This document shows, piece by piece, positions 24,636 through 42,811 of a DNA stretch of 64,000 nt. The notes beneath the pieces were generated by a model, which saw only the letters and a list, made by a program, of their open reading frames with translations, did not search any database and had not been told where the DNA came from. Source of the DNA: Jiella sonneratiae (lineage in GTDB: Bacteria > Pseudomonadota > Alphaproteobacteria > Rhizobiales > Rhizobiaceae); the NCBI RefSeq assembly GCF_017353515.1, contig NZ_JAFMPY010000001.1:372001-436000 (forward strand), given 5' to 3'. Position numbers and translations under genes: made by a program. How positions within the stretch are numbered: position 1 is the stretch's first letter; each line of letters starts with the position of its first letter.

Positions 24636-24863
24636 TGCCGCATCGCTCCTCGTCTCGTGCAAAAATCCGGTGACGGCTCCCGTCCGGCATGCAAGGCAGC
24701 AGCAGCGACGTTCGTTCCATCGCCGCTCGGGGTGTGGCGCACCGGGGTGTGGCCCCCTGGGGTAGGCCGGTCGTGCCGGAAGCCATCGCCCCGCCGACCG
24801 GACGATCCGTCCGACGAACCGTCGCAGGGCATCGGAGAAAGAGATCGCGCGGGCTCGCGACGC

Positions 24864-27534: not shown

Positions 27535-27589
27535 TGGTCAGATCCTCTTTCCCACTGTCATTTGCAGCGGGTCGACCCTTCCGCCATTC

Positions 27590-27710
27590 ACCCCCCTCTG
27601 TCGGCTTCGCCGACATCTCCCCCGCAAGGGGGGAGATCAGCGGGAGCCAACGTCCATGTCGGCCGATCTCCCCCCTTGCGGGGGAGATGCCCGGCAGGGC
27701 AGAGGGGGGT
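27590..27710. repeat. rhizobial-type intergenic inverted repeat
   Basis: The outer arms (CCCCCCTCTG at 27591-27600; CAGAGGGGGG ending at 27709) and inner blocks (catctcccccgcaaggggggagatc and its inverse gatctccccccttgcgggggagatg) make a large imperfect palindrome of about 120 bp. Its wording matches the mosaic elements found between genes in rhizobia. It sits in the 237-bp gap between coxE and the first xdhC gene and could form a very stable RNA hairpin that partly insulates the two halves of the cluster. Confidence 0.75.
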
Positions 27711-27771
27711 TGAGGCGCAGGGCACCTGTCGTTTCGACTTATGTCGATCCCCGCCCCGCCCTCGGCAAGGG

Positions 27772-29058
27772 TCAGGCGGCGGCGACGAGCGTTTCGTCCT
27801 TCAGCCACAGCCTGGGGTCGGTCTCGGCCATCGGCCGGTCGCTCGACAGAGCCTCGCAGAGCGCCCGCATCGCATCGAGCGAATGCACCGAGCGAAACTC
27901 GTCGACATGCGGGAGCATCGCCCTCACCCCGCGCGCCTTGGCCGAGAAGCCCTCGTAGCGTAAGAGAGGGTTCAGCCAGATCAGCCGCCGGCAGGACTTG
28001 TGCAGCCGCTCCATCTGCCTTTCGAGATCGCCGACGCTGTCGCGCTCGAGACCGTCGGTGATCAGGATGACGATGGCGCCCTGCCCGAGCACCCGCCGCG
28101 ACCAGACCCGGTTGAAGGTCGACAGCGCCTCGGCGATGCGCGTGCCGCCCGACCAGTCCTTCACCGTGCCGGCACATTCCTCGAGCGCCTCGTCGGGATC
28201 CCTGCGGCGCATCTGGCGCGTGACGTTGGTCAGCCGCGTGCCGAAGAGAAACGTCTGGACCCGCCGCCGCTCGTCGGTCAGCGCGTGGAGAAAATGCAGG
28301 AAGACGCGGGTGTACTGGCTCATCGAACCGGAGATGTCGGCGATCACCACGACGGGCGGGTGGCGGGTCCGCGGCGAGGCGAATTTCGGCAAGAGAAGAT
28401 CGCCGCCGGTGCGCATCGAGGCGCGCATCGTCGCCCGCGCGTCGATCCGCGCGCCGCGCGGGTCGAGGCGGTAACGCCGCGTCGCCACCTCGTCGTGCGG
28501 CAGCCGGAGCGCGGCGATGGCGCGCTTGGCATCCGCGAGTTCGGCGACCGACATCTGGGCGAAATCCTTCCTGCGCAGCACCTCGTCGCCGGATACGGTC
28601 AGGCTGGCGTCGATCTCGACGATCGGCCGGTCCTGTTTCGTCACGCGGTCCTTGGCGCCCTCGAACAGCCCTTCCGCCGCCCGGTCTTCGCCTGCCCGCT
28701 TCTTCTCCGGCTCGCGCTCGCGCGGCGGCGCCGTCGGCGAGAACATCGCGATCATCTTCTCGATCAGTTCGCGCGAGCGCCAGAACAGCCGGAACGCCTC
28801 GGCGAACACTGCCTCGTCCTCGCGGCGCGACACCAGCGTCGCATGCAGCGTCCAGAAGAAGTCGTCGCGGGAGGCGAGGCCCGCCGCCTTCACCGCCTCG
28901 ATGGCGTCGAGCGTCGCCGCCGGGCCGAGCTTCAGCCCGGCCCGGCGCAAGGCGCGGGCGAAATAGGCGATGTTGTCGGCGAGCCGGCCGTTCGGATCGG
29001 CACGGCGCGGCCCGGCAAGCGTCGCGTCCGCGGGCTCAGGAGGCGGCGCCGAGCTCAC
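27772..29058 (-). CDS. coxE: CoxE-like VWA-domain protein
   Basis: The 428-residue protein has a CoxE-type layout: an N-terminal helical part, a charged linker (REREPEKKRAGEDRAAEG), then a von Willebrand A domain with MIDAS motif DISGSMSQY (about residue 241) and the ITDGLERDSVGDLERQME segment. With its MoxR partner, CoxE in CO-dehydrogenase operons helps mature the Mo-Cu active site. It overlaps the end of the MoxR gene by 23 bp. The gene symbol follows family and context, since no CO-dehydrogenase subunits are visible. Confidence 0.85.
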   Translation of the reverse strand: MSSAPPPEPADATLAGPRRADPNGRLADNIAYFARALRRAGLKLGPAATLDAIEAVKAAGLASRDDFFWTLHATLVSRREDEAVFAEAFRLFWRSRELIEKMIAMFSPTAPPREREPEKKRAGEDRAAEGLFEGAKDRVTKQDRPIVEIDASLTVSGDEVLRRKDFAQMSVAELADAKRAIAALRLPHDEVATRRYRLDPRGARIDARATMRASMRTGGDLLLPKFASPRTRHPPVVVIADISGSMSQYTRVFLHFLHALTDERRRVQTFLFGTRLTNVTRQMRRRDPDEALEECAGTVKDWSGGTRIAEALSTFNRVWSRRVLGQGAIVILITDGLERDSVGDLERQMERLHKSCRRLIWLNPLLRYEGFSAKARGVRAMLPHVDEFRSVHSLDAMRALCEALSSDRPMAETDPRLWLKDETLVAAA

Positions 29059-29959
29059 GCTTCACCTCGTCGAGTATCTTCCGGCTCTCGCCGCTCTGCA
29101 GCCGCTCGATGTCGTCCTGATATTTGAGCAGCACGCCGAGCGTGTCGGAGATGTGGGCGGGATCGAGCGCCACGGCGTTGAGTTCGGTCAGCGCATTGGC
29201 CCAGTCGATCGTCTCGGCGACGCCGGGGGCCTTGAACAGGTCGATCGTCCGCAGCCGCTGCACGAAGCCGACGAGCTCGGCGGAAAGTTCCTCGTTGGCG
29301 CGCGGCGCCTTGCGACGCACGATGGCGAGCTCGCGCTCGGCCTTCGGATAGTCGACCCAGTGATAGAGGCAGCGCCGCTTCAGGGCGTCGTGGATCTCTC
29401 TCGTGCGGTTGGTGGTGATGATGACGATCGGCGGCTCCTCGGCGCGGATCGTGCCGAGCTCTGGAATGGTGACCTGGTTGTCGGAGAGGATTTCGAGCAG
29501 GAAGGCCTCGAAGGCCTCGTCGGTCCGGTCGAGTTCGTCGATGAGAAGCACCGGCGCCCGGCCCGGGACGGCCTCCAGCGCCTGGAGGATCGGCCGGCGG
29601 ATCAGGAAGCGTTCGGAGAAGATCTCCGAGCGCATCGCGTCGCGCGCCGTGTCGCCGCTCGCCTCGGCGAGGCGGATCTCGATCATCTGCGCGGCGTAGT
29701 TCCACTCGTAGAGCGCCGAGGAGACGTCGAGGCCCTCGTAGCACTGCAGCCGGATCAGCGGCCGGTCGAGCGCCGCCGCCAGCACCTTGGCGATCTCGGT
29801 CTTGCCGACGCCGGCCTCGCCCTCGAGAAACAGCGGCCGGCCCATCTTGAGCGCGAGGAAGAGCACCGTCGCCAGCGGCCGGTCGGCCAGATAGTCGGCG
29901 CGGTCGAGCAGCGCCGCGGTTTCGTCGATCGAGGCGGGAAGCTTCGTCACGGTCGTCAA
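29036..29959 (-). CDS. coxD: MoxR-family AAA+ ATPase (CoxD-like)
   Basis: The 307-residue ATPase has Walker A GEAGVGKTE (about 47-55), Walker B VLLIDELDRTDEAFEAFLLE (about 136-155), sensor 1 IITTNRTREIHDALKRRC and an arginine finger in that segment. MoxR ATPases pair with VWA proteins as chaperones for metal-cofactor insertion, and CoxD is the form acting on CO-dehydrogenase-like enzymes. The stop lies inside the coxE reading region (23-bp overlap), so the two are coupled. Confidence 0.88.
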   Translation of the reverse strand: MTTVTKLPASIDETAALLDRADYLADRPLATVLFLALKMGRPLFLEGEAGVGKTEIAKVLAAALDRPLIRLQCYEGLDVSSALYEWNYAAQMIEIRLAEASGDTARDAMRSEIFSERFLIRRPILQALEAVPGRAPVLLIDELDRTDEAFEAFLLEILSDNQVTIPELGTIRAEEPPIVIITTNRTREIHDALKRRCLYHWVDYPKAERELAIVRRKAPRANEELSAELVGFVQRLRTIDLFKAPGVAETIDWANALTELNAVALDPAHISDTLGVLLKYQDDIERLQSGESRKILDEVKRELGAAS

Positions 29960-30032
29960 ATCCCTGTCGTCTCGCGGGTGGCCGCGGGCGCGCTTTCGCC
30001 CGTCCCCCGGCCCTGTTGATCGTCCATCCGCG

Positions 30033-30575
30033 TCATCCGGCCACCGGCAGGGAGCGGAAGCTGCGGTCGAGATAGAGGAGCGCCGGCGCCGACGGGCCGA
30101 GCTGGACGTCCGCGACCTCGCCGATCAGCACCTTGTGGGTGGCGATCACCTTGGCGTCGATCAGCCGGCAGTCGAAGCGGGCGAGCGCCGAGGCGAGCAG
30201 CGGCGCGCCGCTGACGCCGGTCGACCATTTTCCGCGGGCGAAGCGCTCGCGCTGGCTGAGCCTGCCCTCGCCGGCGAAGAGGCGGGCGAGCGGCTCGTCC
30301 GCCGCGGCGAGCACGTTGACCGCAAAGACGCCGTTCTCCTCGAACCAGGCGTTCTCGGCGCTCGAGAGATTGAGGCAGACGAGCAGCGTCGCCGGATCGT
30401 CGGAGACAGAACATGCCGACGTGACCGTCACGCCGCGCTGCCCCGAGGCCCCGCCGGTCGTCACGACGTGGACCGAGGCGGCGAAGCGGGTCATGGCGGC
30501 GCGAAACGATCGCGGGTCCGTCCGCAGGGGCGTCGGCAAACGTTGGTCCTCGTTCATCGGAAAGACATGGTTCAT
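30033..30575 (-). CDS. flavin reductase family protein
   Basis: The 180-residue protein is an FMN-binding split-barrel reductase of the HpaC/RutF type: FRAAMTRFAASVHVVTTGG, RGVTVTSACSVSDDPATLLV and the C-terminal ALLYLDRSFRSL are diagnostic. It would reduce free flavin with NAD(P)H for a partner monooxygenase, but no monooxygenase is adjacent. It is 73 bp upstream of the MoxR gene on the same strand. The start is uncertain, since neither ATG 30575 nor ATG 30557 has a good ribosome-binding site. A 2,128-codon open frame runs into it from the right and is spurious. Confidence 0.85.
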   Translation of the reverse strand: MNHVFPMNEDQRLPTPLRTDPRSFRAAMTRFAASVHVVTTGGASGQRGVTVTSACSVSDDPATLLVCLNLSSAENAWFEENGVFAVNVLAAADEPLARLFAGEGRLSQRERFARGKWSTGVSGAPLLASALARFDCRLIDAKVIATHKVLIGEVADVQLGPSAPALLYLDRSFRSLPVAG

Positions 30576-30719
30576 CGCATCTACATAGGGTGGCCTCGAA
30601 CGGCGCGCACCCTCGATCCTCGCTCGAGGGCCGGCGCGGCGACGGATTCGCCGCGGCCCGACAGTCGCACGGCGCGGGCGCGATTTCCAACTGCCGGCGA
30701 ACGCGCTATCACCGCCACC

Positions 30720-31823
30720 ATGCGCGCTCACGCAATCCTCGCCTTGTCGCTCCTTTCGGCCGTGCCGGCATCCGCCCAGGAGGCTGCGACGCCGCTCGTC
30801 GGCGTCGCCGCGCCGCTCGCCGATTCGCAGGCGATCCTCGGTCGCCAGCTGACCGCCGGCGTCGCCGCGGCGGTCGCGAGCCACGGCGGCGGGACGGCGA
30901 GAACGGTGGTCGCCGACACCTCTTGCTCGGCAGAGGGAGGCGCCGCGGCGGCGAAGAATTTCGTCGCCGAAAAGGCCGACGTCGTCGTCGGCTTCCTCTG
31001 CATCGAGGCGATCGAGGCGGCGCTGCCGATCCTCAAGAAGGCCGGCATCCCGACGCTCGACGTCGGCGTCAGGGCCAACCGGCTGACCGACGACAAGCCC
31101 CGCAGCGGCAATCTCCTGTGGCGGATCGCGCCTCGCTCCGACGCCGAAGCGATCGCCGTTTCCCGTTACGTCGCCGCGCGCTGGGCGGACCAGCCCTTCG
31201 GCCTCGTCGACGACGGCTCGATCGCCGCCCGCAGCCTGTCGGATTCCGTCCGGCGGCGGCTTGCCGACCAGGGGCTGAAGCCGCAGACGCTCGACAATTT
31301 CCGGCCGGCCGAGGAAAAGCAGTTCGGCCTGGCGCGGCGCATGGAACGCAGCGGCGTCACCCGCTTCTTCATCGCCGGCGACAGGCCGGACGTCGCGATC
31401 ATCGCGCGCGATGCCAAGGAGCTGGGGCTCGACCTTTCCATCGTCGGTTCCGAAGCGCTGTTCGACGAAGCGAGCACCGACACGCCGCTGCCGGCCGGCA
31501 TCGTCGCCATCGGTCCGCAGACGCGGTTTCCCGAGCTCGAACCGAAGGACGAGGCGGAGGGGACCCGCGACGAGACCGGCCGGCTTCCGCCGCAGGGCTA
31601 TTTCGGACCGGCCTATGTCGCGACCGAGATCGCCATCGAGGCGGTTCGTCGAAGCCGCGAGGATGGCGGCGACGGCGGCGGGATCGACAAGGCCCTGGCC
31701 GGCGGGCCCTTCGAGACCAGTCTCGGCAAGGTGACCTTCGACAAAAAGGGCGACGGCAGTCTCGACCTCTTCCGCGTCTTCGAGTGGCGCGGCGACGAAT
31801 TCGCGGACGAAACCGGCGGGTAA
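30720..31823 (+). CDS. ABC transporter substrate-binding protein, type I periplasmic fold
   Basis: The 367-residue protein starts with a signal peptide cleaved near residue 20 (PASAQEAATP). The mature part resembles the LivJ-type (Peripla_BP_6) receptors: VGVAAPLADSQAILGRQLTAG at the N-terminus, KNFVAEKADVVVGFLC, and PQGYFGPAYVATEIAIEAVR near the end. These bind branched-chain amino acids, amides or urea. No permease or ATPase genes are next to it, so it is an orphan receptor. It is divergent from the flavin reductase gene. Confidence 0.8.
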   Translation: MRAHAILALSLLSAVPASAQEAATPLVGVAAPLADSQAILGRQLTAGVAAAVASHGGGTARTVVADTSCSAEGGAAAAKNFVAEKADVVVGFLCIEAIEAALPILKKAGIPTLDVGVRANRLTDDKPRSGNLLWRIAPRSDAEAIAVSRYVAARWADQPFGLVDDGSIAARSLSDSVRRRLADQGLKPQTLDNFRPAEEKQFGLARRMERSGVTRFFIAGDRPDVAIIARDAKELGLDLSIVGSEALFDEASTDTPLPAGIVAIGPQTRFPELEPKDEAEGTRDETGRLPPQGYFGPAYVATEIAIEAVRRSREDGGDGGGIDKALAGGPFETSLGKVTFDKKGDGSLDLFRVFEWRGDEFADETGG

Positions 31824-32123
31824 GCCGCGGCGGCACCCGCTTTGCCATTGCGGGCTCGCCGCAAGCCATGGGCGCCCGGCTGGCGCGGCACTTCGAAGCG
31901 ACGCTCCGAGGCCCCGACGATTTTTTTGACGCAGGGGCAGCGGCGGCATCGACTTCGCCAGGGCGATAAAATACAATATATTATCCGGTCGACGCTCCTC
32001 ATCGCGCGCTCTGAACGCCAGAACGCGGCCGGATGCTTCTATCGATCGTATCAGACCATCGCATTGTCCGGAATTCGGGTCCGTGTTTCGGATCGATGCT
32101 TCAGGCTGGCGGAGGAAATCTCG
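31824..32123 (+). promoter_or_regulatory. 300-bp intergenic region, likely promoter of the PAN-domain gene
   Basis: The region has one AT-rich patch, 'gataaaatacaatatattatcc' (about 31968-31989), which stands out in this GC-rich DNA and offers -10-like TATATT/TATTAT hexamers. A TTTTTTTGACG run lies about 45 bp before it. A weak hairpin CCCGC/GCGGG (31836-31854) may end the upstream gene. No ORF is supported here. Confidence 0.3.
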
Positions 32124-32687
32124 ATGCGCCGCGTTGTGACGAGTCTTTTCTGCATCTTGCTGCTGCTCTTCCTCGGTGTCGGCGCCTCCCGCGCCGACCA
32201 GGAATTCGAGGACAATGTCGACCGCCCCGGCGGCGACTACAAGAATTTCGATCTGAACGACCCGACGCCGGGAAGCTTCGGCGGGCCGGTCGACGCCTGC
32301 CGCATCCAGTGCGAGCAGGACGGCGCATGCCGGGCCTGGACCTTCGTCAAGAAGGGCGTCCAGGGTCCGAAGGCCAGATGCTGGCTGAAGACCGCCATTC
32401 CCAACGCCGTGCGAAACGGCTGCTGCACATCGGGCGTTCCGGCACGTTCGTTCGAAGCGGGGATCGACCGTCCGGGCGGCGACTACAAGAACTTCGACCT
32501 CCCGGCAGCCGATGCCAATCTCTGCGGCAGCGCCTGCAACGGCGAGAACGCCCTCTGCAGGGCCTGGACCTTCGTGCGCCCCGGCGTCCAGGGGCCGAAG
32601 CCGCGCTGCTGGCTGAAGAACACGGTCCCGCCGGCGGCGGTCAATGACTGTTGCACCAGCGGCGTGTTGGGCCCTATCGTGCACTGA
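32124..32687 (+). CDS. secreted protein with two PAN/Apple domains
   Basis: The 187-residue protein has a signal peptide (to about residue 24, GASRADQEF) and two repeats of about 75 residues. Each repeat runs DRPGGDYKNFDL ... C ... C ... CRAWTFV-(K/R)-GVQGPK-x-RCWLK ... CCTSGV. The cysteine spacing is that of PAN/Apple modules, which bind proteins or carbohydrates and are held by disulfides. The two copies are far more alike than most PAN pairs, implying recent internal duplication. GGAGG eight bases upstream fixes the start. I infer an exported adhesion or binding role; nothing more can be said. Confidence 0.82.
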   Translation: MRRVVTSLFCILLLLFLGVGASRADQEFEDNVDRPGGDYKNFDLNDPTPGSFGGPVDACRIQCEQDGACRAWTFVKKGVQGPKARCWLKTAIPNAVRNGCCTSGVPARSFEAGIDRPGGDYKNFDLPAADANLCGSACNGENALCRAWTFVRPGVQGPKPRCWLKNTVPPAAVNDCCTSGVLGPIVH

Positions 32688-32849
32688 GGGAGCACGTGCG
32701 ACATCGAGGCCCCGCCTGGTGCGGATCCCGCGTCGGGTGTCGGATTGGAAGGCTCCATTCGAACCTCCGTCGCGGCGCGTGGCCTGCGGGATCGGCATTC
32801 GCCGCGCCGGTCCGGCCGCGGGTCGGCGAAACCAGGAAGCGAACCGCTC

Positions 32850-33872
32850 TTGCAGAGCCATGGCTGGCATCGGGGTCCGCGCAACCTCATCACCGACGTC
32901 GGCGGCGTCTTCGTCGGCAATGCCGGCGACGACGGCCTGAAGAGCGGGACGACCGTCGCGCTCTTCGACCCTCCGGCGGTTGCCGCGGTGGAGATTCTCG
33001 GCGGCGCGCCGGGCACGCGCGAAACCGAGCTGCTCGCGCCGGAAAGGCTGGTTCCGGGCGTCGACGCGCTGGTGCTCTCCGGCGGCTCGGCCTTCGGCCT
33101 CGACGCGGCCGGCGGCGTCCAGTCCCTGCTGCGCGAGACCGGCCGCGGCTTCGCCGTCGCGGGCTTCAAGGTCCCGATCGTCCCGGCGGCGATCCTCTTC
33201 GATCTCGCCAATGGCGGAGACAAGGACTGGGGGCTGCATCCGCCCTATCGCGACTTCGGATATGGAGCGGCGAAAGCCGCCGCGGCGGACTTCGCCATCG
33301 GCACGGCGGGAGCCGGCATCGGCTGCACGACGGGGACGGTGAAGGGCGGGCTCGGTTCGGCATCGGTGCGCCTTCCCTCCGGAATCACGGTCGGCGCGCT
33401 CGTCGCGGTGAATGCCGTCGGCTCCGCCACCGTCGGCGACACGGCGCATTTCTGGGCCGCGCCCTTCGAGATCGGCGACGAGTTCGGCGGCCTCGGGCTG
33501 AATGCCGTCCTGCCCGAGCAGCGGGAGCTGCTGCGCAGCAAGTTCGATCCGAAGCCGGCCGCCAACACGACGATCGGGATCGTCGCCACCGACGCGATCC
33601 TCGACAAGGCCGCCGCCAAACGGCTGGCCATCGCCGCCCATGGCGGGCTCGCCCGGGCGATCTGGGCATCGCACACGGCTTTCGACGGCGACCTGGTCTT
33701 CGCCGCCGCGACCGGCGCTTCCGGCGTCGCGGTCGACCAGCGCGAGGCGGCGACGATCGAACTCGGCGCCGCGGCTGCAGCCGTCATGGCGCGGGCGATC
33801 GCGCGCGGCGTCCATGCGGCCCGCCCCGCCCCGGGAGACGTCGCCCCGGCATGGAGCCAGCGCTTCGGCTGA
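32850..33872 (+). CDS. P1 family peptidase (S58, DmpA/NylC-like)
   Basis: Members of this N-terminal-nucleophile family are autoprocessing aminopeptidases or amide hydrolases. The protein has NLITDVGGVFVGNA at the start, ALVLSGGSAFGLDAAGGV, GGLGSASVRLPSGITVGALVAVNAVG, and the autocleavage site NTTIGIVATDA with a threonine as probable nucleophile. No ATG fits. The TTG at 32850 has AGGAAG ten bases upstream and gives the family's usual short N-terminus (340 residues); a TTG at 32745 would add 35 residues not typical of the family. It follows the PAN gene by about 160 bp. Confidence 0.85.
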   Translation: MQSHGWHRGPRNLITDVGGVFVGNAGDDGLKSGTTVALFDPPAVAAVEILGGAPGTRETELLAPERLVPGVDALVLSGGSAFGLDAAGGVQSLLRETGRGFAVAGFKVPIVPAAILFDLANGGDKDWGLHPPYRDFGYGAAKAAAADFAIGTAGAGIGCTTGTVKGGLGSASVRLPSGITVGALVAVNAVGSATVGDTAHFWAAPFEIGDEFGGLGLNAVLPEQRELLRSKFDPKPAANTTIGIVATDAILDKAAAKRLAIAAHGGLARAIWASHTAFDGDLVFAAATGASGVAVDQREAATIELGAAAAAVMARAIARGVHAARPAPGDVAPAWSQRFG

Positions 33873-34010
33873 CGGAGCGTCGCCCCATGCGGCGCGGCGG
33901 AATTCTTCCGTCAGCAAGCCCCCTCGGCAAAGCCCACCAGCAAACACCATTGTGTTTCTCGCGTCTTGTCGGCAAAGCAGGTCGGTGTGCCCGCCTGAAG
34001 TGTTCCAGCC

Positions 34011-36524
34011 ATGCCGATCGCCACCGTCGTTGCCCTCGTCGCCGTCGTCGTCGCCCTCGGCTCGCTGGCGCGGCCGGTGGCGCGCTTCTTCCGGCTGCCG
34101 GTGTCGATCGTCCTGGCGGCCGGCGGCCTCGCCCTCGGCCTGCTCTGCCTCTATTCGATCGAGAACCCCGGCTCGATGCTGCCGGCGACGTTCTCGGCCA
34201 TGGTGCTCGACCTTCCCGTCGGCTCGCACCTCTTCCTTTACGTCTTCCTGCCGACGCTGATCTTCCAGGGCGCGCTCGACGTCGACATGCACAGGATCCG
34301 CGAGGACGTCCTGCCGATCGTCATCCTCGCCCTCGTCGCGGTGATCGTCGCGACCTTCGGCGCCGGCCTCGCGCTGTGGCCGCTGGCCGGCATGCCGCTC
34401 GTCGCCTGTCTCCTCGTCGCCTCGCTGATCGCCACCACCGATCCGGTCGCGGTCATCGCGATCTTCCGCGAGGTCGGCGCTCCGGAACGGCTGACGCGGC
34501 TCGTCGAAGGCGAGAGCCTGTTCAACGACGCCGCGGCGATCTCGCTGTTCCTGATCTTCACCACCGCCCTCACCGCCCCCGGCTCGCTCTCGGCCCTGTC
34601 GGTCGCGGCGAGCCTGATCCTCCTGCCGCTCGGCGGCGCCGTGCTCGGCTGGGCCGTCGCCCAGGCCTTCCTCGTCCTGTCGCGCTCGCTCGCGGACGAC
34701 CGCATCGCCTTCGTCTCGCTCAGCCTCGCCGTCCCCTACCTCGCCTACTGGATCGGCGAGGAGGTGCTGGAGGTCTCCGGCGTCATCGCCGTGGTTTCGG
34801 CCGGCGTGACGCTGGCGACCTTCGCCCCCGGCCGGATCGCCGGCGACACCTGGCGCCACCTCAAGGACACCTGGGAACAGCTGGCCTCCTGGTCGGCCAT
34901 CCTGATCTTCGTGATGACCTCGCTGCTCGTCCCGCGCCTCGTCGGCGGGGCGACGCCGCACGACCTTTTGCTGCTCCTCGTCGTCTTCGCCGCGACGCTC
35001 GTCGCGCGCGCCCTGGTGATCTTCGGCTGCTTTCCGCTGCTGTCGCGGTTCGGCCTCTATGACGGGGTGTCCCGCTCCTATGCGGTGGTGATGATCTGGG
35101 GCGGCCTGCGGGGGTCGATGACCCTGGCGCTGGCCCTCGCCGTCACCGAGAATCCGGCGATCCCGCGTCCGGTCGCCGCCTTCGTCGCGACGATCGCGAC
35201 CGGCTACACGCTGGCGACGCTGTTCGTGCAGGGCACCACGCTGCGCCTGCTGATCCAGGGTCTGAGGCTGGACGTCCTTTCCGGCGTCGACCGCGCGATC
35301 CGCGATCTCGCGCTGTCGGCGACCTCGGAGAAGGTCGAGGCGCTGGCCCGCTCCATGGCCGAGCGCTTCCGCACCTTCTCGCGCAATGAAAGGATCGGGG
35401 ACGACGACCTCGACTTCGTCATCGATCCGGTGACCTCCACGGCGAGCCTCTGCGAAGAGGAGAAGCTGCGGCTCGCGCTGATCACCCTGTCCGACCGCCA
35501 GCGCGACATCGTCCTCTCCCGCTTTGCCGAAGGCAAGGTCGCGCCGCCGATCGCCCGCGAACTGACGGCCGCCGCCCGGCAGCGCCTCGACCTCGTCCGC
35601 GCCCGCGGCGCCGAGGGCTACGACGTCGCCACCCGCAACGAGATCGGCTTCGACCGCCTCGACCGGATGAGCCTGCAACTGCAGCGGCGTCTCGGCTACA
35701 GCCGGCTGCTCGCCCGGCGGCTCGGCGACCGCTTCGAGCGCCTGGCCGAGATCTCGCTGGTCATCGACCGGCTGGTGCCCTTCGCCGACGCCGAGCTCAG
35801 GCCGGTCCTCGGCGCGGAGCCGGCCGTCGGCGCGACGGCGGCGCTGAAACAGCGCCAGGACGTCGTCGAGCGCGAGATCGCGGCGATCCGCCTGCAATAT
35901 CCGGCCTATGTCGCGAAACTCGAGCGGATGATCATCGCGCGCTCCATCCGCGCCTTCAAGGCAGCGGAGATCGAGCGGCTGCGCCAGTCCGGCGTCATCA
36001 ACAGCGAGGTCGAGCGCAGCGTCCTCAAGGGCCTCGGTCCGGCGCGGCTCGTCGAGACGCGGCGGCCGGAGCTCGATCTCGGCCTCGACACGCTCAGCCT
36101 GATCGAGCGCTGCGACCTCTTCGCCGGCCTCGACGCGCGGGTGAAAACCGAGCTCGCCCGGCATCTGAGGCCGCATTTCGTGCCGCCCGGCCTCACCGTG
36201 ATCCGCACCGGTGAGATCGGCGACGCGGCCTATTTCATTGCCTCGGGCGCGATGGAGGTGGAGCGCGGCGACGTCAAGGTTCGGCTCGGCAGCGGCGAGA
36301 TCTTCGGCGAACTCGCGCTGATCTTCGACATCCGGCGGCAGGCCGACGTCAGGGCGATCGCCTATTCGTCGCTGCTGCGGCTCTCCGCCCAGGACTTCGC
36401 GCGGTTCCTCGAGCGCCATCCGGACATACGCGCCAAGATCGAGGCGGTGGCGAGGGCGCGGATGGACGAGAACCAGATGGCGATGCCGAAGGAGCGCGTC
36501 GCGATGAGCGAGCCGGTCGCCTGA
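34011..36524 (+). CDS. cation/proton antiporter with C-terminal cyclic-nucleotide-binding domain
   Basis: Residues about 1-430 are a 12-helix NhaP/NHE-type antiporter: LYVFLPTLIFQGALDVD, IATTDPVAVIAIFREVGAPE, EGESLFNDAAAI and WGGLRGSMTLALALAV are its hallmarks. A long helical linker follows (about 430-700), then a CAP-type cyclic-nucleotide-binding domain (about 705-815) with a phosphate-binding cassette FGELALIFDIRRQADVRA that keeps the glycine, glutamate and arginine that hold the cyclic phosphate. The 837-residue design is that of sperm-type NHEs (SLC9C) and their bacterial relatives, where cyclic nucleotides modulate exchange. It converges with an adenylate cyclase 16 bp away. Confidence 0.92.
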   Translation: MPIATVVALVAVVVALGSLARPVARFFRLPVSIVLAAGGLALGLLCLYSIENPGSMLPATFSAMVLDLPVGSHLFLYVFLPTLIFQGALDVDMHRIREDVLPIVILALVAVIVATFGAGLALWPLAGMPLVACLLVASLIATTDPVAVIAIFREVGAPERLTRLVEGESLFNDAAAISLFLIFTTALTAPGSLSALSVAASLILLPLGGAVLGWAVAQAFLVLSRSLADDRIAFVSLSLAVPYLAYWIGEEVLEVSGVIAVVSAGVTLATFAPGRIAGDTWRHLKDTWEQLASWSAILIFVMTSLLVPRLVGGATPHDLLLLLVVFAATLVARALVIFGCFPLLSRFGLYDGVSRSYAVVMIWGGLRGSMTLALALAVTENPAIPRPVAAFVATIATGYTLATLFVQGTTLRLLIQGLRLDVLSGVDRAIRDLALSATSEKVEALARSMAERFRTFSRNERIGDDDLDFVIDPVTSTASLCEEEKLRLALITLSDRQRDIVLSRFAEGKVAPPIARELTAAARQRLDLVRARGAEGYDVATRNEIGFDRLDRMSLQLQRRLGYSRLLARRLGDRFERLAEISLVIDRLVPFADAELRPVLGAEPAVGATAALKQRQDVVEREIAAIRLQYPAYVAKLERMIIARSIRAFKAAEIERLRQSGVINSEVERSVLKGLGPARLVETRRPELDLGLDTLSLIERCDLFAGLDARVKTELARHLRPHFVPPGLTVIRTGEIGDAAYFIASGAMEVERGDVKVRLGSGEIFGELALIFDIRRQADVRAIAYSSLLRLSAQDFARFLERHPDIRAKIEAVARARMDENQMAMPKERVAMSEPVA

Positions 36525-36540
36525 CGCCCGCCGCCCTGCG

Positions 36541-38526
36541 TCAGGACGCCTCCATCCGGTGCGGGGCCTCTTTCAGGGGCTTGGCGTTCCGGCGCGCTTC
36601 GCGGGCGGCGATCGTCGCATGAAGCCCGGCGAGCGCCGGACGGTCGGCGAAGCACGCCGCGTCGCCCCCGCCTTCGCCGGCAAGAAGTGCCTCGACCGCA
36701 ACATCGAAGCGTTTCCTCGCCTCGTCGCCGAGCGGCTCTACGGACAGCACCGTATAGACCGGCGCGACGCCGCTCCGCCCCTTCACGGCGATGCGGGCGA
36801 CGAGCAGCGGCGCCAGCCCGGGTGAGATCGCCGCCGCGGTCGCCGCGCCGACGAGCAGCGGCACGGCGCATTCCTTCGAGGCGCTTTCGAGCCTGGAGGC
36901 GTAGTTCACGGCATCGCCGAGGACCGAATAGTCGAAGCGGGTCGCCGACCCCATGTTGCCGACGACGCAGGTTCCGGTGTTGATGCCGACGCCGACCGCG
37001 AGCTTCGGCGCCGCCGCGCCGAGCTCGGCGCCGAGCTCCGCATTCAGCCCCTCGACGGCCGCGAGCATGGCCAGCCCCGCCTCCACCGCGTGGCGCGCAT
37101 GGTCGGGATCGTCGAGCGGCGCGTTCCAGAAGGCCATGATGCAGTCACCGATGAACTTGTCGATCGTCCCGCCGCGATCGAGCACCGCCTGCGACAGCGG
37201 CGTCAGCAGCCGGTTGATGAGCTGGGTCAGGCGCTCGGGCTCGTCCTTCATCGACTCGGCCAGGGTGGTGAAGTTGCGGATGTCGGAAAACAGGATGGTG
37301 AGTTCGCGCCGCTCGCCGCCGAGCTTCAGGGCGGAGGGATCGCGGGCCAGCCGCTCGACCAGGGCCGGCGCGAGATAGTGGCCGAAGGCGCGGATGACGC
37401 CGCGGCGCATCGCCCGCTCCTGGGTGATGTCACGCGCGGCGAGCGGCGCGAGCACCGCGGCGACGGCGAGCGAAGGGGCGAGCGGCGGCAGGAACAGCCG
37501 CAGGCCGAAGAAGGCCGCGGCGCTGGCGCCGAAGACGGCGGCGACGAGGCAGAGCCCGGCGAGGACGCTCCACAGATCCGCCGGCCGGAAGGCGACGAAG
37601 GCCGCGGCGAACGCCGCGACGACGACGAAGCCGGCGACGAGCGGCAGGCCGGCCGGGCGGAGCGTCAAGGCGTGGCGCAGATTGTCGGCGATCGTCGCCT
37701 GGATCTCGACACCCGGCACCAGCATTCCGGTCGCCGAGGTAAACGGCGTCGCGAAGCTGTCGGCACCGCCGGTCTCGGCCGGGATCGCCATCTGCAGGCT
37801 GCGGCCGACCACGGCGATCTTGCCCTTCAGGAAGCCGGGGGGAAGGAACGTTCCGGGATCGAGCGCCTGATAGTAGGAGACGGTCGGATAGCTGCGGGCC
37901 GGGCCCATCGGACGGAGCAGGCCGCCGGCCGCGGCGACAGGCGCCTCGCCGGCCGCTTCGAGAAGCTTTGCGGCAAAGCCGTCCGGCGCGGCCGGCACCC
38001 GCCGCAGCACGTTGTCGGGATCGAGCGAGACCGAGGCGAGCCCGACCCGCGCGCCGGCGGCGACGAATTCCGGCAGCGGCTCGGTGCGGATGAGCTGGCT
38101 CATCTGCGGCGTCTCGATGACGCTCTCGTCGGCGGCAAGCACCACGTCCGGTCCGAGCGCCTGCGCCAGCGCCGCGTCCGCCGCCTCGCTGGAGGGTTCT
38201 GCGAAGACGAGATCGAGGCCGATCGCCCTGACGCCGGCCTGTCTCAGCGCGTCGACCAGCCTGGCATGCAGGTCCCGCGGCCATGGCCATTGCAGGCCGA
38301 TCTCGGCGAAGGAGGGTTCGTCGATCGCCACGACGACGATGCCGCCGTCACCGTCACCGTCATCCGCCGTCGCGGCCACGGGCGGCGACAGCGTCGCGAA
38401 GAGATCGAAGACCCGCGCCTCGGCCATGCGGAAGGGCTGCCAGAGCGACAGGCCGAGGCACAGGAGGATCGCCGCCGCCGCACAGAATGCCGTCTCGACG
38501 ATGCGCCGGCGTTTCGTCCGGTCCAT
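36541..38526 (-). CDS. CHASE2-domain class III adenylate cyclase
   Basis: The 661-residue protein has an N-terminal helix (11-30), an extracytoplasmic CHASE2 sensor (about 35-280), three membrane helices (about 295-360) and a cytoplasmic cyclase domain (about 400-600). Metal-binding Asp415 (FSDIRNF) and Asp461 (KFIGDC), the adenine-selecting Lys457, and transition-state Asn541 and Arg545 (VNYASR) are present. The position usually Asp in class IIIa enzymes is Ser534 (FDYSVLG), as in class IIIb cyclases. It should make cAMP. Its ATG directly abuts the stop of the FecR-TPR-barrel gene, so the two are coupled. Confidence 0.93.
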   Translation of the reverse strand: MDRTKRRRIVETAFCAAAAILLCLGLSLWQPFRMAEARVFDLFATLSPPVAATADDGDGDGGIVVVAIDEPSFAEIGLQWPWPRDLHARLVDALRQAGVRAIGLDLVFAEPSSEAADAALAQALGPDVVLAADESVIETPQMSQLIRTEPLPEFVAAGARVGLASVSLDPDNVLRRVPAAPDGFAAKLLEAAGEAPVAAAGGLLRPMGPARSYPTVSYYQALDPGTFLPPGFLKGKIAVVGRSLQMAIPAETGGADSFATPFTSATGMLVPGVEIQATIADNLRHALTLRPAGLPLVAGFVVVAAFAAAFVAFRPADLWSVLAGLCLVAAVFGASAAAFFGLRLFLPPLAPSLAVAAVLAPLAARDITQERAMRRGVIRAFGHYLAPALVERLARDPSALKLGGERRELTILFSDIRNFTTLAESMKDEPERLTQLINRLLTPLSQAVLDRGGTIDKFIGDCIMAFWNAPLDDPDHARHAVEAGLAMLAAVEGLNAELGAELGAAAPKLAVGVGINTGTCVVGNMGSATRFDYSVLGDAVNYASRLESASKECAVPLLVGAATAAAISPGLAPLLVARIAVKGRSGVAPVYTVLSVEPLGDEARKRFDVAVEALLAGEGGGDAACFADRPALAGLHATIAAREARRNAKPLKEAPHRMEAS

Positions 38527-41500
38527 CTAGAACCGTGCCTGCATCGTCGCGCGGATGGTCCGCTGCGCCGTCGGCACCAGCGGCGCGACCTCGACGGCTT
38601 CGTCGAAGAGGTTGTAGACGCCGAGATCGACGGCGAGATGCCGGTCCTCGCTTTCCCACGAGCCGAACACGTCGGTGACGAAGGCGTCGTCGAGCCGCTG
38701 GTTGCCGATGTGGGATTCGCGGTGGCCGAGATAGGTCTCGCGGGCGGTGACCTTGATCCGGCTCGGGTCGACATAGGTCAAAGCGACGTTTCCGCCCCAG
38801 TCGGGCACATAGGGGATGTCGCCCGTGGCGCCGGCGACGGTTCCCTTCGACCAGCTCCGGGCGAGCGTCGCCGAGGCGCCGAAGCCGCCGCCGAGCCAGC
38901 TGTTGACCGTCAGGGACAGCCGGTCGAGCCTGGCGTCGTCGACCGTGACGGCGTCGATATAACCGGGCACTTCGAAGGCGAGACCGGCAAAGTCCTGGTG
39001 CTGGTATTCGACCGCCGTGAAGAGGTGCCGCGACCACTCGCTGTCGAGGCGCACGATGGAGGTGTCGACATGTTCGACGCCGCCGCCCAGCGCGTTGGAC
39101 CGCAGCCCCACGACGCCGATCGGCGCCAGCGTGTAGCTGTCCTGCTCCGGCCGTTCGCGCAGGAAGCCTGCCCTGAGCCACTGCCCCTCGACCGGCATGT
39201 AGGCCGCGCCGAAGCGCGGCGCGAGGAACTCGTCCCGCTCCGCCCCGTCGGTCTCGGTCGTCGAGCCGAACAGGCCCGCCTCGAAGCGCAGCGCGTCCGT
39301 CGCCTCGAAGGTCGCGTCGATCCAGGCGCGGCCGAAATTCGAACGGCTTTCGGAGGACGCGACCGAGATCAGCCGGGGAATGCCGGCGGCATCGAAGGCG
39401 TAGAGTTCGCCGGCGGTCTGCGACCGCTGGCCGCCGTATTCGCCGCCATATTCGAGGGTGAAGGGTTCGAAGCCGACGATGTGCGAGGCGCTGGCCTTCA
39501 GGAGGTCCTGCCGGGCGTTGGCGGCATAGGCGCCGAGGACGTTCTGGTAGAGGAGTTCGAGCGGCACCAGCGCCTGCTCGCCGTCGTTCCGCACCCCGAA
39601 GACCGCGACGTCGAGGACGTTGTGATAGCCGAAGGTGTGGGAGAAGCCGAGCGTGCCGAGGAAGGTGTCGTCGCGGGCCGTGTCGCCGCGGGTGAACGGG
39701 ATCGCCTCCAGCGCCTCGTTGCCGGTCCCGCGCGCGGCCGAGACGAAGCCGGCGACGCGGTCGTAAGGGGTGACCTGGAGGCCGAAGCCCCCGACCAGCC
39801 GGTAGTTGTCATCGTCCTGGTCGGCATAGTCCGGGGAAGTCGACTCGCCGCTCACCTGCAGCATCATCGAATAGGGCAACGGGTCGTAGCCGAGCGACTG
39901 GACGCCCGCACCATACACCCCGCCGGACTGGCCGGCGCGGCTGAGGACGCCGCCGCTGAAGGAGAATTCCGTGAACGGCGTGGTGACGAAGGACGGGCGC
40001 AGGTTGGAGCCGGCGAGGCTGAGAGCATCGCCGAGAATGCCCTTGGTCAGGAGCGAGAAGCCCCTGCTGTCGACGTCGGCATCCGGCCCGGCGATCTCGT
40101 CGCCGCGGGAGAGCGAGAACGGCGCCGGCGTGCCGTAGAGCGCCCGGTCGAAATAGCCGGCCGATTCGAACGGATCGAAGACCAGTTCGCTCCAGTAGTT
40201 GCCCCAGGCGTCGAGCGACAGGAACCCGTAGGCCGAGGCCAGCGCCGAGCCGGAATCGCGCGTCGCATGGATCGACTGGTAGTCGCCGCCGCGGGCGCGG
40301 ATCCGCTCGACCGCCCGATGCGCGTATTCGATCGCGTCGTCGGCCTGATACTGGTCGACCGCGAGCGCGGCGAGATATTGCGCGGCGAGCACGCTGTTCG
40401 GGTCGAGCCGGTCGGCGTCGTCGAAGGCCTGGCGCGCATGCTCGATGTCGCCATTGGCGGCATAGGCCTCGCCGAGGGTGAGAAGCACGTCGGAATAGGC
40501 CGGGTTGGTCGCCGAGGCCTTCAGCAGGCTGTCGAGGGCTGCCTTTTCCTCGCCCTCGAGCAGTTGCTGCGTGCCCCGCACCATATAGGCGATGGTGAAG
40601 GACGGATCGGCCTCGAAGACCGCGTCCGTCATGGCGCGCGCCTCCGCGACGCGGCCCTGCGCCAGATAGACCATGGCGAGATTGGCGCGGTTGATCGGAT
40701 CTTCCGGATCGATCTCGACGGCCCTCAGCAGCGCCGCCTCCGCCTCGCGCATCGCCCCGCGTTCCGCGAGCGCCAGGCCGTAGACGTTGAGCAGCGCCGT
40801 GTTGCCCGGGGCGAGCGCCAGCCCTCTCTCGAGGTCGGCGATCGCCCCCTTCAGGTCCGATTCGGCATTGGCTCGGTAGTCCGCCCGGGCGGAGAGCACT
40901 TCGGGATCGTCCGGATCCAGCGCATAGGCGCGGTCGGCGGCGCGCTTTGCCGTCTTGTAGTCGCTGGCGAACATCGCGACCTTGCTCAAAAGCGCCTCGA
41001 ATTCCGGGTCGTTGGAAAACCGCGGCTCGGCATCGAGCAGGATCTGCAGCGCCTCGCGCGGGGTCTTGAGGATCGCCGCGATCACCGCCTCGCCGGCGAC
41101 CGAGATCCGGTCGTTCGGATCGGGCCTCGGCGCCGGCGGCACGTGCCGCGGATCGGCGAGCGAGCGGGCGTAGTAGAGGAAGTAGGTCGCGGTGGTCCGG
41201 CGCTCGCCGGAAAGCTGCGGCAGGGCGGCCTCGTAGAGCCTGACGGCCTCGGCGTAGCGCTGCCGGCCCGCGGCGATGTTCGCCTGAAGCAGGGTGAGCC
41301 GCGCCGCCCGCGCTGCCGTCAGCGGGCCCTGCCGGGCATCGGCGATCATACGCTCGGCGACCTTCCGCCCGTCGCGGTCGGCGGCGATCTCGGCCGCCAG
41401 CACCCGGTCCTCGGCGCTGCGGGAACCGGCGGGGATGGCGGCGAGCCGGCGCTGCTCCTGAAGCAGCCGGCGGTTCGGCAGGGGTGTCGTCGGAAAGGAT

Positions 41501-42159
41501 TCGAAGGCCGAGCGCAGAGAGACGTTGACGAGCATCTGCTCATGCACGTCGTCGGCGACGATGACGTTCTTGGTCGGCGCCTCGCCGAGCGTCGCGGCCG
41601 CCGCCTCGCCCTGGCGCACGGTCACCGAGCCCTGCGGGTTGGAAAACTGCACCTCGCCGTCCAGCACCGACAGGGTCGTGCGGCTGCCTTCGGCCTGCAT
41701 CGCCCAGTCTGTGCCGCGGATCGCCGCGGTGGCGGCGGCCGTCTCGACGAACACGCCGGAGCCGCCGCGCGCCGCACGACCAAAGATCTGGCCGCTCTGC
41801 AGCACCAGCTTCGTGTCGCCGCCGGGCACCCGCTCCTTGACGATCAGCGTCGAGTTCCGCCCGACGCGGATCTGCGTCTGGTCGGAGAACAGGATGGCCA
41901 GCTGCCCGGCGGAATTCGTCCTGAGGACGTCGCCGGTCTTGACCTCCTGCAGGACCTCGACGCCGCGCCACGCCGGCGCCTCGACGAACTCGATCTCTTC
42001 GCCGAGCTTGGTCGCGACGACCGACCCGGCGGCCGGGGCGACCCGCGGAACCGGGTCGGCGCCGGCGGCGGTGGCGGCGAAGCCGCAGGCGGCCAGGAGA
42101 GTGAGACGGCAACGCGTCCGATGCATCGCGGGGAAACTCGAGACTTGACGATGCGGCAT
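38527..42159 (-). CDS. FecR-TPR-beta-barrel outer-membrane protein
   Basis: This 1,210-residue protein combines an export signal (core MHRTRCRLTLLAACGFAATA), a FecR domain (about 60-200: VKTGDVLRTNSAGQLAILFS and RGTDWAMQAEGSRTTLSVLD), a long run of TPR repeats (about 230-600), and a C-terminal region (about 620-1210) rich in alternating beta-strands that ends in phenylalanine (TMQARF), the outer-membrane-barrel signature. FecR domains sense or relay envelope signals. It lies directly upstream of the CHASE2 cyclase with no gap, which suggests it delivers a signal to that sensor. An alternative start at 42126 gives a more typical signal peptide. Confidence 0.85.
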   Translation of the reverse strand: MPHRQVSSFPAMHRTRCRLTLLAACGFAATAAGADPVPRVAPAAGSVVATKLGEEIEFVEAPAWRGVEVLQEVKTGDVLRTNSAGQLAILFSDQTQIRVGRNSTLIVKERVPGGDTKLVLQSGQIFGRAARGGSGVFVETAAATAAIRGTDWAMQAEGSRTTLSVLDGEVQFSNPQGSVTVRQGEAAAATLGEAPTKNVIVADDVHEQMLVNVSLRSAFESFPTTPLPNRRLLQEQRRLAAIPAGSRSAEDRVLAAEIAADRDGRKVAERMIADARQGPLTAARAARLTLLQANIAAGRQRYAEAVRLYEAALPQLSGERRTTATYFLYYARSLADPRHVPPAPRPDPNDRISVAGEAVIAAILKTPREALQILLDAEPRFSNDPEFEALLSKVAMFASDYKTAKRAADRAYALDPDDPEVLSARADYRANAESDLKGAIADLERGLALAPGNTALLNVYGLALAERGAMREAEAALLRAVEIDPEDPINRANLAMVYLAQGRVAEARAMTDAVFEADPSFTIAYMVRGTQQLLEGEEKAALDSLLKASATNPAYSDVLLTLGEAYAANGDIEHARQAFDDADRLDPNSVLAAQYLAALAVDQYQADDAIEYAHRAVERIRARGGDYQSIHATRDSGSALASAYGFLSLDAWGNYWSELVFDPFESAGYFDRALYGTPAPFSLSRGDEIAGPDADVDSRGFSLLTKGILGDALSLAGSNLRPSFVTTPFTEFSFSGGVLSRAGQSGGVYGAGVQSLGYDPLPYSMMLQVSGESTSPDYADQDDDNYRLVGGFGLQVTPYDRVAGFVSAARGTGNEALEAIPFTRGDTARDDTFLGTLGFSHTFGYHNVLDVAVFGVRNDGEQALVPLELLYQNVLGAYAANARQDLLKASASHIVGFEPFTLEYGGEYGGQRSQTAGELYAFDAAGIPRLISVASSESRSNFGRAWIDATFEATDALRFEAGLFGSTTETDGAERDEFLAPRFGAAYMPVEGQWLRAGFLRERPEQDSYTLAPIGVVGLRSNALGGGVEHVDTSIVRLDSEWSRHLFTAVEYQHQDFAGLAFEVPGYIDAVTVDDARLDRLSLTVNSWLGGGFGASATLARSWSKGTVAGATGDIPYVPDWGGNVALTYVDPSRIKVTARETYLGHRESHIGNQRLDDAFVTDVFGSWESEDRHLAVDLGVYNLFDEAVEVAPLVPTAQRTIRATMQARF

Positions 42160-42222
42160 GAATCTTTGCCGGCCACGTCGCTGTCAATCTGAGGACTGCA
42201 GGTTGAGACGCTGCGTCAAGTC
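42142..42222. promoter_or_regulatory. 9-bp inverted repeat in the divergent promoter region
   Basis: GACTTGACG (42142-42150) and its exact reverse complement CGTCAAGTC (42214-42222) lie 63 bp apart, spanning the gap between the FecR-TPR-barrel gene and the divergent small membrane-protein gene. Each arm contains a TTGACG hexamer resembling a -35. They could be paired promoters or a two-site operator. Confidence 0.35.
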
Positions 42223-42328
42223 GATTCCCGGATTGCGTGACCACGGCGCCACAGACGCCGGACGCGAGTTCCGGCAGAGCGATGATGTCACGTCACCGTC
42301 ACCCGAATCACGCCTGCTGGAGCGTCGG

Positions 42329-42811
42329 ATGTCCGAACGGCATCTCGTCCATCTCATCGAAGCCAACCGCATCTTCGCCGACCAGATCCGGACGGCCGAT
42401 CAGAAGGCGGCCTACATCTTCACCTTCATCCTCGCCCTTGTCGTCTGGTCCGCCGAGACGCGGCGCTCTTTCTCGCTGGAGCATCTCGCCGCGGCCGGCC
42501 CGGTCAACGCCGTCGCCAGCCTCGTCATGCTGGCGGCGGTGGGCACCGCCCTGATTTCGGCAATCTGCGTCGTCCTGCCCCGCTCGCGCCCGGGCACCAG
42601 CTTCCTGTTCTGGGGCGCGTGGCCCGCCGCGGGCGAGGCCCTCGACGCGGCGCGCAGCCGCGACGACACCGAGATCCTCTATCAGGACTATCTCCAGAAC
42701 ACCCGGACGCTCGCGGCGATCTGCCAGGCGAAGTACCGCCTCGTCGCCCTCGCCTTCCGCTCGATGTTCGTGGTTCTGGCGAGCTACATCGCCCTCCTGG
42801 TCTCCGGCTGA
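42329..42811 (+). CDS. small membrane protein resembling Pycsar transmembrane effectors
   Basis: The 160-residue protein has a helix starting RTADQKAAYIFTFILALVVW (residues 21-40), a second hydrophobic span (about 57-84) and a third at the C-terminus (about 144-159), with a conserved-looking segment YLQNTRTLAAICQAKYRLVA (121-140) between. The 'AD-x-KA' before the first helix and the 'Kyr..a' near the third are features I associate with the PycTM/DUF5706 family, whose studied members collapse membranes when a cyclase makes a cyclic nucleotide during phage attack. GGAG six bases upstream fixes the start. The match is from memory of short motifs, so it is tentative. Confidence 0.6.
   Translation: MSERHLVHLIEANRIFADQIRTADQKAAYIFTFILALVVWSAETRRSFSLEHLAAAGPVNAVASLVMLAAVGTALISAICVVLPRSRPGTSFLFWGAWPAAGEALDAARSRDDTEILYQDYLQNTRTLAAICQAKYRLVALAFRSMFVVLASYIALLVSG

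Follow-up and report, generated by a model that had tools for sequence, protein, structure and literature searches.

Signal perception by the CyaK cyclase of Sinorhizobium meliloti, a model legume symbiont, requires NsrA and yields a cAMP output, and the NsrA-CyaK pair acts in symbiotic signalling and in the autoregulation of infection, where it helps to keep further infection in check. The established and published output is Clr-dependent transcription, according to the accessible parts of two papers (PMC5498481, PMC13001267). A related FecR/TPR/CHASE2 cluster has been published for the Campylobacterota, but in the available portion of that paper the FecR and TPR proteins are separate, a phosphodiesterase is added, and neither an antiporter nor a PycTM is named (PMC9239204). 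Pycsar, which combines the PycC cyclase with PycTM, and the sperm exchanger SLC9C1 are two further points of comparison: in the accessible text on the former, PycTM is said to form a pore and so to disrupt the membrane (PMC11224242), and that on the latter reports modulation of the exchanger by cAMP (PMC6052114).

The window analysed here, a stretch of 64,000 nucleotides from Jiella sonneratiae, carries the four neighbouring genes listed in Table 1. An earlier note on this DNA had proposed that they form a cAMP circuit, and the layout on which it relied holds: all four open reading frames are present with the expected domains, the antiporter and cyclase genes converge with their stop codons 16 bp apart, and the stop of the FecR-TPR gene directly abuts the cyclase ATG. 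The start of the PycTM-like frame had to be corrected from 42158 to 42329, since homologues align only from the latter and the ATG at 42158 overlaps the start of the FecR gene. Our preferred reading, to which we give a probability of roughly 60%, is that the locus encodes a trans-envelope cAMP receptor of the NsrA-CyaK type and, next to it, proteins that are likely to be its local outputs.

Table 1. Features of the locus in the Jiella sonneratiae window.
Feature	Coordinates	Strand	Basis
CPA1-type cation/proton antiporter with C-terminal cyclic-nucleotide-binding domain (CNBD), 837 aa	34011..36524	+	PF00999 + PF00027
CHASE2 adenylate cyclase, CyaK type, 661 aa	36541..38526	-	PF05226 + PF00211
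NsrA-type receptor gene (FecR, TPR)	38527..42159	-	FecR + TPR Pfam matches, NsrA homology
Intergenic region between nsrA-type and PycTM-like genes	42160..42328	.	Presumably carries both promoters
PycTM/DUF5706-family small membrane protein, 160 aa, divergent from nsrA-type gene	42329..42811	+	PF18967

Sequence comparison shows homology of the FecR-TPR protein to NsrA and of the CHASE2 cyclase to CyaK of S. meliloti, and this half of the locus is of the type described, as far as the accessible text goes, in PMC7529298. The receptor shares 38.5% identity, over 97% of the query, with a pSymB protein of S. meliloti 1021, and the cyclase 50% with its homologue in the same strain; in S. meliloti CP140934, the homologous gene is annotated nsrA and overlaps cyaK by 1 nt. 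The two species agree in how receptor and cyclase are built and in how their genes are ordered and oriented, and both have a DUF5706 gene at the corresponding position, whereas no antiporter match was found within the compared S. meliloti region. The window receptor has a FecR domain (PF04773, E 9e-14), several TPR families above cut-off and an N-terminal signal-like segment, the true start being possibly residue 12. It has no hydrophobic helix and gives a weak TonB-receptor-like match; its C-terminal part is presumed to be an outer-membrane barrel, for which homology to NsrA and such weak matches are the grounds.

The cyclase retains all six catalytic positions inspected (D415, K457, D461, S534, N541 and R545), as the earlier note had claimed, including the class IIIb-like serine. 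Class IIIb cyclases have Thr or Ser in place of the substrate-binding Asp, and S534 aligns with the Thr of P. aeruginosa CyaB (3r5g). Among 47 aligned homologues, D415, K457, D461, N541 and R545 are kept in all, and position 534 is Ser in 38 and Thr in 9, whether or not the cyclase is linked to an antiporter. With its homologues in S. meliloti as a guide, the pair in the window probably works as NsrA-CyaK does.

The resemblance of the small membrane protein to PycTM, also noticed earlier, is borne out by PF18967, which it matches at 44.5 bits against a cut-off of 27.2. Both this family and two PADLOC PycTM models match each of 20 aligned homologues, in which a conserved core is seen. The AlphaFold model is all-helical (mean pLDDT 84.5), and the invariant polar residues of the family sit in predicted membrane-adjacent helices. 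Searches for a solved relative gave none by sequence (best E 0.97) or by fold (best E 0.36), and a profile scan recognised no nucleotide-binding domain in the protein; both results count against the preferred reading.

As in Pycsar, a PycTM-family gene lies in a cyclase locus. The best PADLOC match of the cyclase is a PycC model, but it covers only the common catalytic domain. The four genes could be an anti-phage system of the Pycsar kind, in which phage contact with the receptor, which presumably faces outward, would raise the messenger and the PycTM-like protein would permeabilise the membrane, much as the pore described for its Pycsar relatives. Several observations nevertheless make this highly unlikely. 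The window enzyme is a CHASE2 receptor cyclase that comes with an envelope sensor, Lys457 and Ser/Thr534 are kept in 47/47 homologues, and such residues at these positions are typical of adenylate cyclases; NsrA-CyaK, moreover, has its known role in S. meliloti in symbiotic signalling. For the most part the cyclase tree agrees with the families, which is not the pattern of a mobile defence island, even if a defence role would still be compatible with it. Finally, the accessible text of PMC11224242 gives other base-selecting residues for PycC, a difference that is one of description and not of alignment.

The conservation of the gene neighbourhood bears more directly on the preferred reading. 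A scan for named nsrA loci retained 80 of 401 relatives, and a search of the family of J. sonneratiae matched 32 genomes, two of which contributed no region to the comparison: G013, where only the TPR part matched, and G089, where the match lay at the end of a contig. The cyclase is present in 78/80 named loci and in 27 of the 32 other own-family regions. The PycTM-like gene adjoins the nsrA-type gene in 60 of the 80 named loci, as does the gene annotated DUF5706 in S. meliloti, and the antiporter is linked in 9; of the local partners, it is the PycTM-like gene that is conserved most widely, ahead of the antiporter. Of 121 genomes of the family, 23 encode both full-length PycTM and CyaK, 1 has only PycTM, 8 have only CyaK and 89 have neither (Fisher p 5e-17, uncorrected for kinship). 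The PycTM-like gene is divergent from nsrA in most loci, co-directional in five loci of family f34, and directly beside cyaK without nsrA in two genomes. All such counts of loci and genomes are not independent events, since the named and unnamed sets overlap (at least nine pairs of loci are on contigs of equal length, e.g., L090/L263, L039/L223, L045/L228, L040/L271 and L046/L230) and the lineages are related, and those of the order-level PycTM profile search, whose first pass scored eight candidates per genome, are lower bounds. Gene clustering exceeds chance, and the PycTM-like gene belongs to the NsrA-CyaK module. A Clr-like box was also considered for the region between nsrA and PycTM and rejected: with a consensus that we take to be that of Clr, it appeared in 1 of 85 such intergenic regions, versus 3.7 expected from mononucleotide shuffles.

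What the PycTM-like protein does within this module is a separate question. Instead of being an output, it could act on receptor and cyclase as a regulator, either as an accessory protein in the membrane or as a sensor for feedback by cAMP, which would suit a small protein whose gene adjoins nsrA or directly cyaK and whose invariant polar residues lie where they are predicted to. Yet the receptor-cyclase pair can work without it, as it is absent beside the pair in 20/80 named loci and, in full-length form, from 8 of the 31 family genomes with CyaK. Its absence from these 20 loci weighs on the preferred reading too, as does damage to the gene in some genomes (an internal stop in G042, a 35-residue match in G011), and no recurrent replacement was seen by eye among the ORFs listed at loci without it. 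As its relatives are effectors in Pycsar, in the accessible account of that system, a regulatory role seems unlikely, and the PycTM-like protein is more probably a cAMP target.

The antiporter has a patchier distribution. It is absent from 32/32 other own-family regions, and on these regions it had seemed an incidental neighbour, a view overturned by the order-level search. In Jiella, Aurantimonas, Fulvimarina, Chthonobacter and one further genus, the antiporter and cyclase genes are arranged tail to tail, and they are so in all 17 antiporter loci that have a CyaK-type cyclase (one genome being counted twice; stop-to-stop distances are unreliable for L091, L096 and L226, where they are negative). 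Seven of the eight genomes found outside the family have the four-gene set, and the eighth has nsrA, cyaK and the antiporter together; the f34/g227 loci look like the split form of the Campylobacterota with an antiporter added. In a tree of 65 of 67 loci (G457 and G074 were left out, and the named Jiella and Fulvimarina antiporters were not included), the 12 cyclase-linked antiporters all fall in one 17-row clade (SH-aLRT 100), five members of which are unlinked. Outside this clade, CHASE2 has no match in 48 antiporter regions, five of them cut by contig ends, and eight cyclase-domain queries match in four of the 48. The proposed set therefore recurs beyond this genome and the circuit survives the comparison, with recurrence and the homology of its receptor-cyclase link to NsrA-CyaK in its favour; the place given to the antiporter has to be qualified, as it is not the main conserved partner.

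A rival account would confine the system to receptor and cyclase, with cAMP acting on a CRP-type regulator, as in S. meliloti, and with the antiporter and PycTM as neighbours that have separate roles. The Clr-mediated output established in S. meliloti speaks for it, as does the fact that most genomes with the antiporter have it without the receptor. Antiporters were found in at least 56/397 genomes of the order and the FecR gene in at least 20 (lower bounds, as the first pass scored two candidates per genome), and so the antiporter must often work without the receptor; within the family, four of the seven genomes with an antiporter have a CyaK orthologue, and in the congener G020 the antiporter is on another contig. 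The J. sonneratiae genome moreover encodes eight class III cyclases, the CHASE2 enzyme among them, and nine CNBD proteins above cut-off, the antiporter among them, so that a private circuit is not forced. Against this account, a CyaK orthologue accompanies full-length PycTM in 23 of 24 genomes, PycTM stays adjacent even where its orientation has changed or nsrA has been lost, and the tail-to-tail antiporter is kept in three families at 41-45% identity, whereas the six other window flanking genes examined were not found in those loci outside the family. We consider it rather unlikely, and favour the receptor with local outputs.

The antiporter itself appears equipped for such an output. Its phosphate-binding cassette is intact, as previously asserted (G766, E767 and R776); all three residues are found in the 17 members of its clade, and outside it E767 is present in 38/48 and R776 in 41/48 antiporters. 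The ND motif (N172-D173) is kept in 65/65 aligned homologues. Among solved structures, the relatives of the CNBD (about residues 690-837) are SthK, HCN and PKA. For the exchanger part, plant SOS1 and the sperm NHE are among the best matches, SOS1 ranking ahead; both are CPA1-type exchangers with a C-terminal CNBD. Hydrophobic segments end near residue 406, with none in 430-700, and a voltage-sensor domain between exchanger and CNBD was not found (maximum 19-residue hydropathy 1.05 in 430-700), so that the protein is not a member of SLC9C1 but only similarly built. The analogy with sperm drawn earlier is consequently a loose one: exchanger type and CNBD are shared, but the voltage sensor is lacking, SOS1 ranks higher, and all 47 aligned cyclases have Ser or Thr where the Asp would be. 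The antiporter may nonetheless bind cAMP, and its transport may be under cAMP control.

The mechanism would then run as follows. A ligand or stress would be met by the outer-membrane part of the receptor, and the signal relayed via its periplasmic FecR and TPR parts to the cyclase's CHASE2 domain; the class III domain of the enzyme, in the cytoplasm, would then produce cAMP. Besides any transcription factor of the CRP type, cAMP would be likely to act directly on two targets: the antiporter, gated through its CNBD, and the PycTM-family protein, with a response in the membrane.

The earlier note knew of no description of the set as one system, which holds only in part. The sensor half is published, for NsrA-CyaK and in the Campylobacterota, at least in the accessible portions of those papers; within the open-licence literature, no paper joins the NsrA-CyaK sensor half to an antiporter or PycTM-like protein, contains DUF5706 or SMb20774 (our guess at the tag of the gene beside nsrA, which the available part of PMC7529298 does not mention), or combines CHASE2 with an antiporter and adenylate cyclase, or CHASE2 with Pycsar. 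The two candidate membrane responders are the less explored part.

More broadly, and tentatively, NsrA-CyaK receptors of the Hyphomicrobiales may have dedicated non-transcriptional outputs at the inner membrane, namely a cAMP-responsive PycTM and, in several lineages, a cAMP-gated antiporter. If so, a signal at the outer membrane would alter ion fluxes or the membrane potential in a matter of seconds, in a likeness to the sperm coupling of cyclase to CNBD exchanger, and the perception of plant signals by S. meliloti would have a third, so far overlooked component in the DUF5706 gene that adjoins nsrA. The conservation of a PycTM-family gene at this position, S. meliloti included, offers a genetic handle on such a second output. 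Should the PycTM-like protein respond to cAMP, a phage-defence family would gain a signalling role outside defence; should the antiporter be gated by cAMP, a single bacterial locus would encode receptor, cyclase and exchanger and could serve as a simple model of how cyclic nucleotides control ion exchange.

Four genes lie within positions 34011-42811 of the window (see table). As the earlier note had claimed, the antiporter and cyclase genes converge with 16 bp between their stop codons, and the cyclase start directly abuts the stop of the FecR-TPR gene. The start of the PycTM-like gene was placed where it is because homologues align from that position only.

Coordinates of the four genes in the window
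Gene	Position	Strand	Product
Antiporter	34011-36524	+	CPA1 exchanger with C-terminal cyclic-nucleotide-binding domain (CNBD)
Cyclase	36541-38526	-	CHASE2 domain and class III catalytic domain
FecR-TPR gene	38527-42159	-	nsrA-type receptor
PycTM-like gene	start at 42329		PycTM/DUF5706-family membrane protein

The earlier note knew of no description of this set as one system, but its sensor half has a counterpart in the literature: judged by homology, the FecR-TPR protein and the CHASE2 cyclase belong to a known kind. In Sinorhizobium meliloti, according to the portions consulted of the respective papers, perception of signal 1 requires NsrA together with CyaK, the inner-membrane cyclase that is its cognate partner (PMC7529298), and this cyclase is of the CHASE2 type (PMC13001267). 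A tblastn search of plasmid records revealed on pSymB of S. meliloti 1021 an end-to-end homologue of the window FecR-TPR protein (38.5% identity over 97%), while the window cyclase and PycTM-like protein share 50% and 43% identity, respectively, with their homologues in the same strain. In record CP140934, the receptor homologue is named nsrA and adjoins cyaK, and a divergent gene on the opposite side is annotated DUF5706, just as the PycTM-like gene lies beside the window's nsrA-type gene. A cluster encoding a CHASE2 cyclase, a phosphodiesterase, a FecR outer-membrane protein and a TPR protein is also described for Campylobacterota in the part consulted of PMC9239204. Within the open-licence PMC literature, no paper connecting these components was found under DUF5706 or SMb20774, nor was any found linking CHASE2 with the antiporter or with Pycsar.

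The PycTM-like gene belongs to the nsrA-cyaK module. Of 121 genomes of the window's family, 24 have a full-length PycTM (E below 1e-40) and 31 a CyaK orthologue scoring over 590 bits; 23 carry both, one (G069) PycTM only, eight CyaK only and 89 neither (Fisher p 5e-17, uncorrected for relatedness of the genomes). PycTM adjoins the nsrA-type gene in 19 of 32 regions from 29 genomes of this family, with the cyclase adjoining in 27. Likewise, for 80 nsrA loci in named genomes (the best 80 of 401 relatives), the cyclase is found at 78 and PycTM at 60, a few of these PycTM matches being short or cut. The arrangement varies: PycTM directly adjoins cyaK in two genomes (G057 and G075) where the nsrA-type gene is elsewhere, is separate from the nsrA-cyaK pair in another (G088), and is co-directional with nsrA rather than divergent at five loci of family f34.

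Several individual loci deserve mention. The nsrA-type match is split in two in G057 (L067), which looks like decay, and in G011 (L066), where a run of N may mark an assembly gap and a 35-residue PycTM match lies alongside. An Arenimonas sp. MAG (L282) carries the PycTM-nsrA-cyaK module on a contig labelled Lysobacteraceae, possibly through mis-binning or transfer. Plasmid pSS37A-Re-1 of Methylocystis iwaonis (L106) bears an NsrA-CyaK-like pair, with RES/Xre genes resembling a toxin-antitoxin pair some 670 bp away and no DUF5706 or antiporter annotation among the genes of the 21.6 kb examined.

In certain lineages the antiporter is part of the set as well. Recurrence of all four genes is confirmed outside the window's family but not in the other regions sampled within it, where the antiporter lies beside the cyclase in 0 of 32; seven of the 121 genomes have the antiporter, four of them with a CyaK orthologue. 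A PycTM profile searched at order level matched at least 17 of 397 genomes and pointed to eight in two further families. Seven of these share the window's gene order for antiporter, cyclase, FecR gene and PycTM; in the eighth, antiporter, cyclase and FecR gene stand together, with PycTM on a separate contig. At least 20 genomes of the order carry the FecR gene, 11 of them outside the window's family; the antiporter is also present in nine of these 11, and linked in eight. In the named-genome scan (best 80 of 401 relatives), all four genes were found in Jiella pelagia, Jiella pacifica, Jiella avicenniae, Jiella endophytica, Jiella sp. LLJ827, Aurantimonas sp. 22II-16-19i, a Fulvimarina MAG and Chthonobacter rhizosphaerae, and all but PycTM in Fulvimarina manganoxydans. 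The window itself is probably Jiella/Aurantimonas-like (Aurantimonadaceae). Antiporter and CyaK-type cyclase are tail-to-tail at all 17 loci that have both (L090 and L263 being one genome). In a congener (G020, locus L200), the left flank of the antiporter is the same as in the window, but the gene sits on a contig other than the cyclase's, and homology breaks off between the two genes; compared with window positions 24454-36476, a rearrangement in G020 split them at this point.

The 46-row cyclase tree mirrors, for the most part, the division into families. The antiporter tree, built by a quick method without bootstrap from 65 of 67 loci, places all 12 antiporters with an adjoining CHASE2 cyclase, nine with one of the NsrA-CyaK type and three with a different CHASE2 cyclase, in a single 17-row clade (SH-aLRT 100) that also has five unlinked members. 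None of the 48 regions outside this clade has a CHASE2 match, and four have another class III cyclase match within about 8 kb; linkage to such receptor cyclases within the clade therefore looks, from the tree, ancestral or repeatedly favoured. At three loci of f34, genus g227 (L158, L159, L160), the clade antiporter stands in tandem, not tail-to-tail, with the second kind of CHASE2 cyclase. Between the two, L158 and L160 have a gene for a metallo-beta-lactamase-fold hydrolase; next come a TPR/barrel-like gene and a small FecR-like one, a layout resembling an NsrA system split into separate genes (Pfam covered L158, and on L160 the hydrolase gene alone).

Asp415, Lys457, Asp461, Asn541 and Arg545 are invariant in all 47 cyclases aligned, and with position 534 they fit an adenylate cyclase. 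Ser534, regarded earlier as class IIIb-like, is indeed present, but Ser (38/47) or Thr (9/47) is common to linked and unlinked cyclases, and the cyclase residues do not set the antiporter-linked ones apart. In the antiporters, the ND motif is invariant (65/65); the window's antiporter has no voltage sensor. The phosphate-binding cassette is intact, as proposed: its Glu and Arg are kept in 17/17 clade members versus 38/48 and 41/48 elsewhere (p 0.04 for Glu, uncorrected). The predicted PycTM model is helical (mean pLDDT 84.5), with no match among solved structures.

The genes of the set, their domains, residues, homology and recurrence are observed, and from these we infer the most likely signalling route. 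A signal arriving at the outer membrane would be relayed by the FecR/TPR parts to the CHASE2 domain, and the cyclase would then make cAMP. Such a circuit may not be private to the four genes, as the same genome encodes eight class III cyclases and, above the cut-off, nine proteins with a CNBD, totals that include the cyclase and the antiporter described here. PycTM could equally regulate the receptor instead of being a target; in the proposed relay, the PycTM-like protein and the CNBD of the antiporter would be the direct membrane targets of cAMP.
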